A stretch of DNA of 24,298 bases. It comes from a virus. The notes under the pieces are model-generated. The model had not been told where the DNA came from, ran no database searches, and saw only the letters and a program-made list of their open reading frames with translations. The translations under genes were made by a program, and so were the position numbers. The stretch spans positions 1 through 24,298 of the IMG/VR virus record IMGVR_UViG_3300037882_000612. The stretch is one strand, 5' to 3'. Shown here one piece after another: positions 5,901 through 19,909 of this stretch (position 1 is its first letter; each line of letters starts with the position of its first letter).

Positions 5901-6851
5901 TTACTTTGTTGCTCTGAATTTCTCCAAAGGAGTCATTTTACTATAATCTTTTTTCTCTGATGGAACATCCGCCAATTTTTGGCTAGACATTTTAACTGCT
6001 TTATAACTATCAAAAGCCTTTGTAACTTCTTCAAGTTGTGCGCTCATCAAAGTAGCATCTTTTGTGTTTTTAGCTTTTTCAGCTTCTAAATCGTCAATTT
6101 TTTTCTGCATCTCTACGATGGTAGCTTGTGCTGTTGCTAATTCTTTTTCAACATCACTAGGTTCTTGCTCTGCAGGAATTTCTTCCGCCATTTCTTCGAC
6201 TTCTTCTTTTACCTCTTCTACAACTTCGGTAGCTTCAGCTTCAGGCTTTTCTTCATCGCTAATGGCACTCATTAGGATAGCCTTGAAATCTTCAAACTTT
6301 TCTAAGATTGTTTTTTTCATATTAATTTTACTAAATTTAGAGATAGGACTATCCATATCTTCTTCCGTATCTAAGTGACCTTCAATAGAAAGCCCTTGTA
6401 ATAATTGATTTTGTATTTTATCTAGTATTTCCTCGCTCTCACATTTATACCCCATAATCCAAGTACCTTGTTTTTGAGTAGGCATACCTAATGCCTTGCT
6501 TTTATCATTTTCGGGGTCTGTGACTATCCAACTTTCAACAGGATAAATGCCTTGCACATCGCTATCAGAATGCTCTATATTTGTGTTAGCGTTACCGTTG
6601 TTTTTAAAATAGTTATTTGATAGTTTTTCAACCGTTTCAGCATCGTAATAAACTAAATACTTTTCTCCTGTGTTTGGGTCAATTCTTTGTATTTTAACAT
6701 CAGGAATCATTACAGGCGAATAGAACACGCCTTTAATTTCCTGAGCTGCCATAAGTACCAAGTCTCCCTCTCCGACCGCTGGATTTTTAACTACTGAAAC
6801 CTTAAAAACTCCTTTTTTATCAGGATTATATTTATATTTTAATACTTTCAT
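5901..6851 (-). CDS. XkdF-like prohead protease fused to scaffold
   Basis: A 316-aa protein in two parts. Residues 1-165 look like the XkdF-type phage serine protease: VSVVKNPAV near residue 18, a His in NIEHSDSDV (H94), GIYPVESWIV, GTWIMGYKC and a candidate nucleophile Ser in QGLSIEGHL (S155). Residues about 200-290 are strongly acidic then heptad-like (VEKELATAQATIVEMQKKID, LEAEKAKNT), as in scaffolding coiled coils. The protein would fill the prohead, be cut by its own protease and leave before packaging. Internal Met codons near residue 178 or 194 could give a separate scaffold by internal initiation. It is the first gene of the capsid group and has its own leader and terminator upstream (6868-6975), so its transcription may be controlled by premature termination. 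Confidence 0.75.
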   Translation of the reverse strand: MKVLKYKYNPDKKGVFKVSVVKNPAVGEGDLVLMAAQEIKGVFYSPVMIPDVKIQRIDPNTGEKYLVYYDAETVEKLSNNYFKNNGNANTNIEHSDSDVQGIYPVESWIVTDPENDKSKALGMPTQKQGTWIMGYKCESEEILDKIQNQLLQGLSIEGHLDTEEDMDSPISKFSKINMKKTILEKFEDFKAILMSAISDEEKPEAEATEVVEEVKEEVEEMAEEIPAEQEPSDVEKELATAQATIVEMQKKIDDLEAEKAKNTKDATLMSAQLEEVTKAFDSYKAVKMSSQKLADVPSEKKDYSKMTPLEKFRATK

Positions 6852-6867
6852 TTGCTTATAACGATAA

Positions 6868-6899
6868 AAAGCCTACTCGCAATTAAGCAAGTAGGCTTT
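6868..6899 (-). terminator. Intrinsic terminator upstream of protease gene
   Basis: Arms 6868-6877 and 6890-6899 pair perfectly over 10 bp around AAAGCCTACT/AGTAGGCTTT with a 12-nt loop, and the minus strand continues TTTTTATC. It lies between leader A and the ATG at 6851, so full-length protease mRNA from this promoter requires read-through. Confidence 0.8.
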
Positions 6900-6938
6900 A
6901 AGGTCTTTACTAATCATTAATACCATGGCTAAACGGTT

Positions 6939-6959
6939 GTAACGTGCATCTTCACACGT
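6939..6959 (-). repeat. Leader hairpin repeat, copy A
   Basis: A 21-nt segment identical to 7431-7451. Its core, minus strand ACGTGTGAAGATGCACGT, folds into a 5-bp stem with an 8-nt loop, extendable by an inner U-G pair. Confidence 0.95.
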
Positions 6960-6983
6960 GGTTTATGCAAATATAAACAAAAA

Positions 6984-7007
6984 ACCCTAACAAATTAATG
7001 TTAGGGT
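6984..7007 (-). terminator. Intrinsic terminator after 111-aa gene
   Basis: The stem ACCCTAAC/GTTAGGGT with an 8-nt loop is followed on the minus strand by TTTTTTG. It lies 33 nt past the stop of the 111-aa gene. The plus strand also shows a T-poor, A-rich flank, so the functional direction is minus. The TATATTTG box of leader A begins 9 nt beyond it. Confidence 0.8.
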
Positions 7008-7040
7008 AAAAAAAATACCAACCAAAAAACTAAAAAAATA

Positions 7041-7376
7041 TTATGAATAAGCAAATATAATGTTTTTATCGAATAAAGCTTTAAAAATATCTTCGTTTTT
7101 TTCTTTCTTTAAACAAATATTGATTGCATCATCGTATTTCTCATTCATTCCGTTAAAAATTATTTTAGGTCTTGGATAAATTAAAGTAGGCGGTTTCTTA
7201 ATTTCGTGTAATCCCCAAACTATAACTATATCGTCTTTAATATATCGAATATCTATACCTCCATCCTGTAAAGTTGAAAAATCGTTAATATTATTTTCTA
7301 CATATTTATTATCAACCACTCTAAAGGCTTTAAATCCTAAATCTTCTACCAAGTATGCTGTAAAGTGTTTTTTCAT
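7041..7376 (-). CDS. Probable moron: unknown 111-aa protein
   Basis: A 111-aa soluble-looking protein with no signal peptide or membrane segment. The N-terminal half shows strands (HFTAYLVEDLGFKAFRVVD, DIRYIKDDIVIVWGLHEI), then a Pro-rich turn (KKPPTLIYPRPKIIF) and a C-terminal helical part with many Lys. No family is recognised. It interrupts the virion genes between tape measure and protease, and it is enclosed by its own promoter-leader-terminator (leader B) and a downstream terminator. That is the arrangement of a moron, a gene inserted into a phage operon with independent expression, often useful to a lysogen or against competing phages. The N-terminal MKKHFTAYLVEDLGFKAFR might suggest a small modulator rather than an enzyme, but its function is unknown. 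Confidence 0.75.
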   Translation of the reverse strand: MKKHFTAYLVEDLGFKAFRVVDNKYVENNINDFSTLQDGGIDIRYIKDDIVIVWGLHEIKKPPTLIYPRPKIIFNGMNEKYDDAINICLKKEKNEDIFKALFDKNIIFAYS

Positions 7377-7392
7377 AATTTTACAAATTAAA

Positions 7393-7416
7393 AAAGCACC
7401 TGTTTAAAGGTGCTTT
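7393..7416 (-). terminator. Intrinsic terminator upstream of 111-aa gene
   Basis: The stem AAAGCACCT/AGGTGCTTT (9 bp, 6-nt loop) runs into TTTTTTAAT on the minus strand. It sits between leader B and the gene start. Confidence 0.8.
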
Positions 7417-7430
7417 AGATTATTGAAATA

Positions 7431-7451
7431 GTAACGTGCATCTTCACACGT
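7431..7451 (-). repeat. Leader hairpin repeat, copy B
   Basis: Identical over 21 nt to 6939-6959. The flanking sequence differs on both sides, so the conserved unit ends sharply at the hairpin plus three bases. Confidence 0.95.
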
Positions 7452-7507
7452 CTATTAAACTACCACAGGCAAGCGGTAAACCTATACAAATATAAATACT
7501 TTTTTAA

Positions 7508-18184: not shown

Positions 18185-19398
18185 TTTAAGTCTTTTTTAA
18201 ATTGTGATAGTGTGTAGTTTTTTTTATTCATAATTGCTTTGTAAATGTAGCTTTCAATTCCGCCTTTAGCAAACAACCAAAATATATTATTTTCTTTTCG
18301 TTCCATTGTGGTCAGTCTGTCTCTACTCTGCCAATAAGAAGTTGCTGAAAAGTCTGGCGTTAAATAAAAAAGATATTCAGCATTTTTTAAACTTATGCCC
18401 TCACGACCCGAAACAATTTGTAAGGCTATATTTTTATTTGAATTATCGAACGTTTCAAGATCAAAACAAATCTTATCTCCAAAAAACTTTTGTATCATTT
18501 CTTTCTCGGCTTGAAACTTGTAAAAAATAGCTATTTTATTTACTCCAAAATTATCTTGAATGTAATATAACTTACTCATATCTAAAATCTCAGCATTACC
18601 GCTATCTAAAATAACCGTCCCACTATACAATTGATGTAATTTGCTCATCATTTTTGCACCTGTATCCGCAATAATCAAATCGTTTTTACCTTCGAATACT
18701 TTATCTTTTTTTAGCTTTTCTGTTATCTTATAAGTTATCGGAAGCATATCAATATAAATAACCGTTTCATTTACGCTTGTCGTGAATCCTGCTTGCTCTT
18801 GGGTAAATGAAATCATATATTTATCAGTTACTTTTTTTATTAGTTCTTGATTAGCATCTGAGTAGTCATTTACTTCCGCATAGCCTAAATACTTCTTTTT
18901 AATGGTTACGTAATCATTTGCCCATTTATAAAAATTAGCGTATTTAAAAGGTGTATAAGCACTAAGCCAAAACTGATGATATATTTGTGAGTAACTCTCT
19001 GGTGTTGGTGTACCACTTAAAAACACCATTGGCAATAAACTAAACTTTTGTTTAATGAATTTAGTACCGTTGTTAGGTTTTGGAAACGCACCGTTTCTGT
19101 GGTGCTCATCGCTTATCACAAAATCAAAATCACCTTTTACTAAATGCAAACTTTCGTTATTTATAACGGTTATTTCAAAAGTAAATCCGAAATCTTTATA
19201 ATCATTTAAAATTGATTTTATTGCTTTTTTCTTTGTGAGAAACAAAACATTTTTAGCACCGTAAATTTGAGCAGTATTCAATGAAGTTAATGTTTTGCCT
19301 GTTCTTACTTCCATCGCCAAATAAACTATTTTTAATTCTTTTAAAATAGTTACTGCTTTATTTGAAATTTCTATTTGATAATCTCTAAGTTGTTTCAT
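18178..19398 (-). CDS. SNF2/DEAD-like phage helicase
   Basis: A 406-aa superfamily 2 ATPase. The motifs in order are a Q-like start (LRDYQIEISNKAV), Walker A EVRTGKTLTS (G34-K35-T36), motif Ia region VLFLTKKKAI, motif II DEHH (97-100), motif III SGTPTPESY and, in the second domain, IALQIVSGREGISLKNAEYL (motif V) and SYWQSRDRL (motif VI with the arginine finger). It is shorter than cellular SNF2 proteins but complete, as in many phage replication operons. It probably unwinds or remodels DNA with the adjacent VRR-NUC nuclease. It overlaps the T5orf172-like gene by 14 nt. Confidence 0.85.
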   Translation of the reverse strand: MKQLRDYQIEISNKAVTILKELKIVYLAMEVRTGKTLTSLNTAQIYGAKNVLFLTKKKAIKSILNDYKDFGFTFEITVINNESLHLVKGDFDFVISDEHHRNGAFPKPNNGTKFIKQKFSLLPMVFLSGTPTPESYSQIYHQFWLSAYTPFKYANFYKWANDYVTIKKKYLGYAEVNDYSDANQELIKKVTDKYMISFTQEQAGFTTSVNETVIYIDMLPITYKITEKLKKDKVFEGKNDLIIADTGAKMMSKLHQLYSGTVILDSGNAEILDMSKLYYIQDNFGVNKIAIFYKFQAEKEMIQKFFGDKICFDLETFDNSNKNIALQIVSGREGISLKNAEYLFYLTPDFSATSYWQSRDRLTTMERKENNIFWLFAKGGIESYIYKAIMNKKNYTLSQFKKDLKC

Positions 19399-19909
19399 AA
19401 GTTATTTTTTTAATTTCTTTTATCCATAAATGAATAGTTTGTCTTGTTATTCCTAAATCCTTTGCGGTTTGCATTCTATTCAAATAAGGATTTTTATTAA
19501 AAAGATCGATAAATATATTTTTTGCTTCCTCTTTACTTAAAGCAACCATTTCAGTATTTATTTTTTTATTTAAATTAATTTTATTTGCCCAAGCTATTTG
19601 AAATTCGTTTCTGTCTTTTATATCTTCAATACTTGAATAAAAATTAACTTCATTAATAACATCTTCTTCAGATATTTCAAACCATTCTCCTAATAATCTT
19701 TTATTTGCATATTTTAAGTGCAATTTAGTTTCTATTAATTTAGATTCATTAGTTTGAATAAAACCTAATATTTCACTACCATAAGGCGCATAAGTTTTAA
19801 ACTGATTAAATCTATCAATAGGACTTTCATTTGTAGAATATCCAATTTTCACAGGTGACAAACCTATATGTCTAAAAAAGTAAACACATCCTTTTTTTAA
19901 ATCTTCCAT
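19385..19909 (-). CDS. T5orf172 (GIY-YIG-like) domain protein with C-terminal HTH
   Basis: A 174-aa protein. Residues 5-85 match the T5orf172/MUG113 branch of the GIY-YIG superfamily: CVYFFRHIGLSPVKIGYS, an Arg in DRF, ESKLIETKLHLKYANKRLLG and EWF. Residues about 138-168 form a helix-turn-helix (NRMQTAKDLGITRQTIHLW). This HTH is like that at the end of the primase (NKSEAAELLGVSRVTIGKW). The gene lies just past the TTTACA/TGTAAA array, so it may bind those sites as a regulator or origin-binding nuclease. Whether the GIY-YIG part still cleaves DNA cannot be told by eye. Confidence 0.8.
   Translation of the reverse strand: MEDLKKGCVYFFRHIGLSPVKIGYSTNESPIDRFNQFKTYAPYGSEILGFIQTNESKLIETKLHLKYANKRLLGEWFEISEEDVINEVNFYSSIEDIKDRNEFQIAWANKINLNKKINTEMVALSKEEAKNIFIDLFNKNPYLNRMQTAKDLGITRQTIHLWIKEIKKITYETT

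Follow-up and report, generated by a model that had tools for sequence, protein, structure and literature searches.

Two identical 21-nt segments in the leaders of two phage genes are copies of a small RNA hairpin family that was previously uncatalogued. They lie in the window, meaning here the whole 24,298-nt stretch of viral DNA that was analysed (IMG/VR record IMGVR_UViG_3300037882_000612). The exact match over 21 nt is not what is essential here: stems vary freely, and what is conserved, nearly to the point of being fixed, is the core UR-UGAAG..G-YA. As judged from sequence, the element probably decides when virus-building genes are switched on. The two leaders and their surroundings in the window contain the following features.

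5901..6851, minus strand: prohead protease of the XkdF/Peptidase_S78_2 family, 316 aa (Pfam PF14550, E 1e-15), putatively controlled by leader 2
6868..6899, minus strand: intrinsic terminator of leader 2, 13 pairs, directly ahead of the protease ATG and overlapped by the candidate leader peptide
6873..6926, minus strand: candidate leader peptide of leader 2, MVLMISKDLKAYLLNCE and a stop (predicted), its ATG 15 nt past the stem and its stop within the terminator
6942..6959, minus strand: hairpin copy 2, stem ACGTG/CACGT, octaloop UGAAGAUG, then UUAC; exact match, with covariation in relatives
6968..6975, minus strand: Bacteroidota-type -7 box TATATTTG of leader 2, read from sequence, 8 nt ahead of the hairpin; putative promoter
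6984..7007, minus strand: terminator 3' of the accessory gene, separating that gene from promoter 2
7041..7376, minus strand: accessory gene, 111 aa, putatively controlled by leader 1
7393..7416, minus strand: intrinsic terminator of leader 1, 9 pairs, 17 nt past the stem with no ATG between, directly ahead of the ATG of the 111-aa ORF
7434..7451, minus strand: hairpin copy 1, core identical to copy 2; exact match
7487..7494, minus strand: -7 box TATATTTG of leader 1, read from sequence, 35 nt ahead of the hairpin; putative promoter

On the plus strand, positions 6939-6959 and 7431-7451 both read gtaacgtgcatcttcacacgt, which bears out the identity outside major ORFs reported in the first-pass annotation. 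The 18-base core ACGTGTGAAGATGCACGT matches the window exactly only twice (6942-6959 and 7434-7451, both on the minus strand), with no third match within 3 mismatches; 0.01 matches are expected by chance from shuffles. Both copies are intergenic and on the coding (minus) strand. A calibrated hairpin model, R2, scores copy 1 at 38.7 bits and copy 2 at 32.7 bits, the next match in the window reaching 12 bits, and no shuffle out of 200 folds as well as either leader (z of -4.4 and -4.2). Each segment had been described as following a box and preceding an intrinsic terminator just ahead of a gene, and these boxes and terminators were located on the minus strand. The spacing from box to hairpin is unequal in the window, 8 nt for copy 2 versus 35 nt for copy 1; in most relatives the box TATATTTG stands at a spacing similar to that of leader 2. 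That the motif falls outside familiar RNA families agrees with a search of the window against Rfam 15, which gave no match at the gathering threshold (best sub-threshold E 0.25 or worse, far under the cut-off).

The genes named earlier as targets, an accessory gene and a capsid-maturation gene, are indeed those headed by the 111-aa ORF leader (copy 1) and the leader of the XkdF-type protease (copy 2); control itself is predicted. The 111-aa ORF has no PHROG or Pfam match, and among the contigs compared a homologue is found only in the closest relative, G398. With its own promoter, hairpin leader and terminator, the 111-aa gene (6984-7494) looks like a self-contained accessory cassette placed between the tape measure gene and the protease leader. 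The cassette is absent from L017 and L018, where the tape measure gene leads directly to the protease leader, and cassettes of the same design are present in L016 and L047. Elsewhere in the window (19385-19909) a gene for a T5orf172/MUG113 domain protein adjoins a ResIII-type helicase gene.

The element is found in many other phages. Three routes, a search with the 18 bases, homology to the downstream protease, and a scan for promoter plus hairpin, together yielded 80 distinct leaders (51 non-redundant) in viral contigs. Leaders within one phage group are kin, and some redundancy remains after it was lowered. In most, the hairpin comes soon after a Bacteroidota-type -7 box and ahead of head genes (protease, portal), usually with a terminator between. 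The exact 18-mer occurs in 13 IMG/VR contigs: ten have the box, hairpin, terminator and gene in that order, one has the hairpin directly ahead of a tail gene, and in two the match is in coding sequence, apparently by chance. The protease alignment, where the query was blind to the hairpin, recovered 45 loci. Hairpins with differing stems were present in nearly all of the closer protease relatives with a visible leader (L025-L058) and absent at more distant proteases (L059-L069). Most phages in 22 further contigs have a single copy. The retention of the promoter-hairpin-terminator-gene layout across many phages upholds the idea of a shared RNA-level signal.

The promoter scan, for a box, 8-16 nt and then UR-UGAAGNNG-YA, matched at least 111 viral contigs, 80 of them readable. 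The stem continues for at least 4 pairs in 69 of 74 new loci, versus 1 of 31 matches in control scans of the same shape with altered closing pairs. With a G-C second pair there were 9 matches, one with a stem and that one in apparent coding sequence; with a pyrimidine ahead of UG there were 22 matches and no stems. This larger set was picked by the core motif, so that independent evidence from it is limited to the outer pairs of the stem, the flanks and the features downstream. The loop itself could be a start codon (RUG AAG) from which a very short ORF begins, the purine-only closing position then reflecting AUG or GUG. The base ahead of UG is invariably A or G, and the pyrimidine control agrees with such a role, but in several copies (UGAAGUAG, UGAAGUAA) a stop codon comes next, reading frames past the loop are not conserved, and RNA recognition explains the purine equally well. 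A start codon in the loop is considered very unlikely. A conserved uORF from the loop ATG (MHVT.. in the first copies) was rejected on variants without that ATG (L042, L047).

The consensus is a stem of 5-6 bp with an 8-nt loop, the core UR-UGAAGNNG-YA comprising the octaloop and its two closing pairs, followed by a conserved AC. The loop is UGAAGNNG in all but a few copies, positions 6-7 being variable among phages. The relatives found through the protease have the stems ACGTG/CACGT, ACGTA/TACGT, CGATA/TATCG, ATGTG/CACAT, AAATG/CATTT, TCGTG/CACGA, CCGTG/CACGG and TTGTG/CACAA. Across 28 distinct rows every cell of the five inner pairs is paired except one, and 36 cells carry double changes, versus 8.1±2.2 in shuffles. 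The covariation score for these rows is 0.67, versus 0.19±0.03 in shuffles and at most 0.17 in slid versions. The loop is closed by a purine-pyrimidine pair, 28/28 rows have U-A as the second stem pair, and a C follows soon after the stem in 28 of 30 rows, one of the 30 being shifted two bases. Compensatory rewriting of the stem around a near-fixed core identifies an RNA element and not a chance repeat; conservation of the hairpin with compensatory changes in relatives, which the first-pass annotation had named as the point on which its proposal could fail, was found. A perfect inverted repeat near a promoter might also be a double-stranded DNA operator for a repressor. In this element, however, the arms change freely with compensation and the asymmetric loop is fixed, the opposite of conserved half sites, and an operator of that kind is highly improbable.

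Helix 72 of 23S rRNA has the octaloop UGAAGAUG as well, and the element could mimic that helix and be bound by whatever recognises helix 72, be it a ribosomal protein or an enzyme of modification. The two match in loop, closing pair and downstream AC, and the exact 18-mer with UUACC is found in the 23S rRNA of two non-Bacteroidota MAGs (L021 4210-4227, L024 1662-1679). Helix 72 alone is a sufficient substrate for the E. coli methylase RlmJ, a point in favor of mimicry, but RlmJ homologues are reported mainly from proteobacteria, which counts against it (PMC3814359). The listed Bacteroidota 23S sequences have G-C as the second stem pair, versus U-A in the phage rows, and the phage loops vary at positions 6-7. 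Mimicry is weakened by this mismatch with Bacteroidota rRNA together with the G-C control scan above, and we consider it improbable. Pairing of the loop with 16S rRNA was also rejected; the single complete Bacteroidota 16S that was checked (L311, about 311-1820) lacks the complement CUUCAY.

The position of the element relative to start codons and terminators was computed along with its structure, recurrence and layout. Two settings can be distinguished. In setting A there is no terminator, and the hairpin ends 6-15 nt ahead of the ATG of the gene (mode 11; one case 23), which encodes a tail protein, large terminase subunit, tape-measure-like protein or antirepressor-like protein. Copies in this setting also occur inside operons, directly ahead of ATGs, without promoter or terminator. 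The setting-A copy at TerL of G399 is an exception to the U-A rule and has a G-C second pair. In setting B a terminator lies between hairpin and gene. A strict scan detected a terminator downstream of the hairpin in 67 of the 80 leaders, and several more have one with an imperfect stem.

A small RNA or a stabilizer is one way to read such leaders: the hairpin is near the expected transcript start, where it could stabilize the 5' end of the mRNA, and the terminator would give a discrete RNA of 60-100 nt with the hairpin at its 5' end. Stability does not need a fixed loop sequence, however, and the operon copies directly ahead of ATGs have neither promoter nor terminator, so that this explanation is quite improbable.

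Start codons follow the hairpin at a preferred distance in the leaders as well. An ATG lies at +5 to +16 past the stem, with mode +10, in 24 of the 51 non-redundant leaders (the promoter-linked set, a few of which are actually in setting A), versus 6.8±2.3 in shuffled linkers. Where both an ATG and a usable terminator are present, the leader ORF reaches the terminator in 16 of 19 cases (10.4 expected, p=0.003), and ORFs that enter the terminator usually stop within it. The candidate leader peptide of the window, MVLMISKDLKAYLLNCE, has the counterpart MVLVSNSKIKAYLLNCE in the relative L016; other candidates are MNVKTFKLDRYSLND, MNVNTTKIQGSLN and MNDNTNFTEKPLIA, all read up to a stop. Terminator loops keep a tighter distance from the ATG (44.9±2.4) than from the hairpin (55.2±3.9). 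Many leader terminators, e.g., window 6868-6899, have UUAAUU in common in their loops, which in several gives the leader peptide its UAA stop. Some leader ORFs would require a TTG or GTG start at about +18. Roughly one in five leaders with a terminator, window copy 1 being one of them, has it 14-19 nt past the hairpin with no ATG between, and the leader-peptide step therefore cannot be general. A general switch in which the 3' arm would pair alternatively with an AACGTG further downstream, as in L003-like leaders, was rejected, since leaders with other stems do not keep that pairing.

It is mainly because the spacing from hairpin to start codon is equal in both settings that the hairpin is thought to act on translation initiation. 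Tentatively, with confidence a little short of even, we take it to be an RNA operator controlling whether ribosomes gain access and, by way of the leader peptide, whether polymerase reads through the terminator. It would be a cis-acting operator in phages with Bacteroidota-type promoters, usually near the predicted 5' end of the mRNA. A trans-acting factor would bind the loop and the top of the stem and so set how readily ribosomes reach a start codon lying about 10 nt further on. In setting A this start codon is the gene's own, and control would be directly translational. In setting B it would be that of the leader peptide, and the translating ribosome would enter the terminator and stop it from folding. 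With the terminator kept open the polymerase could read into the head genes; if the leader were not translated the transcript would end early. Translation and transcription of the head genes would then be switched together in setting B. For window copy 1, where there is no leader ORF, a different coupling may apply, with a bound complex or waiting ribosome interfering directly with the adjacent terminator. Factor binding, the identity of the factor, its activating or repressing sign, translation of the leader peptide and the transcription start are what we infer.

A pure antitermination signal, like the nut/boxB, put or LoaP hairpins, would work otherwise: the hairpin, alone or bound by a factor, modifies RNA polymerase to pass the leader terminator and perhaps later ones, and the spacing to the start codon is secondary. 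The order promoter-hairpin-terminator-gene in most copies, and the short-linker copies without an ORF, fit such a signal, and terminator-less copies inside operons could reload the polymerase. Since window copy 1 has no leader peptide, direct antitermination stays a serious rival. Against it, the start-codon spacing is non-random in both settings, leader ORFs overlap terminators, and some copies are directly ahead of an ATG with no recognised terminator nearby; we hold it to be possible but somewhat doubtful. The first-pass annotation had suggested a shared signal such as an antitermination element recognised by protein or RNA. The shared RNA signal stood, but antitermination as its mode was not established; copies 6-15 nt ahead of terminator-less ATGs and leader peptides running into terminators point to translation.

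Lambdoid nut (boxB) and HK022 put sites are likewise phage RNA hairpins; they lie in early leaders and enable polymerase to read past terminators. In contrast to nut, where a GNRA-like boxB pentaloop works with an adjoining boxA and the phage N protein, the element is one octaloop hairpin at head genes, its loop is not of the boxB type, and put consists of two hairpins. No arginine-rich antiterminator of the N type was identified, BLASTP finding no protein family common to all carriers; N proteins diverge fast, and the contigs may be incomplete. In the LoaP/dfn leader of Bacillus velezensis, where a NusG paralogue acts in antitermination, a small 5' hairpin and then an intrinsic terminator precede a long operon (PMC12691694). 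The element has the same order of parts, leader hairpin and downstream terminator; the dfn hairpin, however, is a UNCG-type tetraloop of host secondary-metabolite operons, and the element is an octaloop in phages whose sequence is not of the UNCG type. We know of no start-codon spacing in LoaP leaders that matches that of the element.

The proposed operator also resembles systems that act through translation. In leader-peptide attenuators of the pyrBI type, a translated leader ORF that overlaps the terminator lets polymerase through. Such overlap is seen in the element leaders with an ATG, but not in short-linker copies like window copy 1. Attenuators respond to nucleotides or amino acids, and their leader start codon is not preceded by a conserved operator hairpin, as it is in the element leaders. 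T4 RegA acts on about 30 mRNAs and gp43 binds a hairpin with conserved loop bases, and both RNA sites adjoin AUGs (PMC3014915). The element likewise stands close to start codons, at or just upstream of them, in several genes (6-15 nt in setting A, mode +10 in leaders). RegA sites are unstructured, however, gp43 serves one gene, and neither is coupled to a terminator as the element is.

Downstream of the element lie, among others, genes for proteases, for portals of several families (PHROG 12, 2662) and for a head maturation protease (PHROG 53). The window group and a Lillamyvirus-like group of carriers have almost no proteins in common, and no protein family common to all carriers was found by BLASTP, in contigs that are possibly incomplete. 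With no phage protein common to the carriers, a factor from the host becomes plausible. The hosts would be Bacteroidota, going by the promoter box and by portal homologues in phages of Flavobacteriia, and contig names suggest that some carriers are prophages of sequenced isolates. In L259 (G432) and L179 the element precedes genes resembling Bro-N or Rha-type antirepressors, one of these carriers being apparently a prophage of a sequenced isolate; its use may therefore not be limited to late genes.

The element was not found in any cultured, named phage or named host genome among those searched. The named phages checked were those with related portals or proteases, and the stretches searched in Lillamyvirus, Cellulophaga phi19:1 and phi46:1, Olleya Harreka_1, Leeuwenhoekiella Arctus_1, Tenacibaculum JQ and Nonlabens P12024L have no element. 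The search for host chromosomal copies was weak: in 395 Bacteroidota genomes the strict pattern gave one match, without a stem, and a covariance search of the same genomes, which scored only 15 candidates per genome, carries no information on this point. The portal leader of Flavobacterium phage lillamy9-1 (L232 19900-20136) keeps the TATATTTG box without hairpin or terminator, and its relatives G417-G421 have both; this joint loss suggests that the two parts work together. In Tenacibaculum phage JQ (L230 about 1180-1414) the portal leader has a box and terminator, and a different long-range stem, GUUCGUUGU..ACAACAUAACGAAC, replaces the element, possibly as an alternative leader RNA. No paper on such an element was found in the literature on Bacteroidetes/Flavobacterium phage antitermination and leader-peptide read-through.

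Bacteroidota phages are among the commonest in the gut, the sea and fresh water, and to our knowledge the timing of their gene expression is largely unexplained. Such a compact element, present in head-gene leaders of two or more phage groups without structural kinship, provides an immediate handle on this timing. It predicts promoters, leader peptides and regulated terminators, and could serve as bait for the factor that binds it. If that factor is encoded by the host, it would be a common dependency of many phages. Bacteroidota mRNAs are not thought to rely on Shine-Dalgarno pairing. A bolder idea, which we rate as rather unlikely, is that a host-encoded factor or the ribosome reads the RUGAAG octaloop and that unrelated phages have adopted the RNA as a portable module for ribosome loading and antitermination. 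A ribosome loaded beside the hairpin would then start the gene, start the leader peptide, or merely block a terminator 15 nt away. Such a module, if real, would amount to a phage expression switch of a new kind, operating in Bacteroidota.
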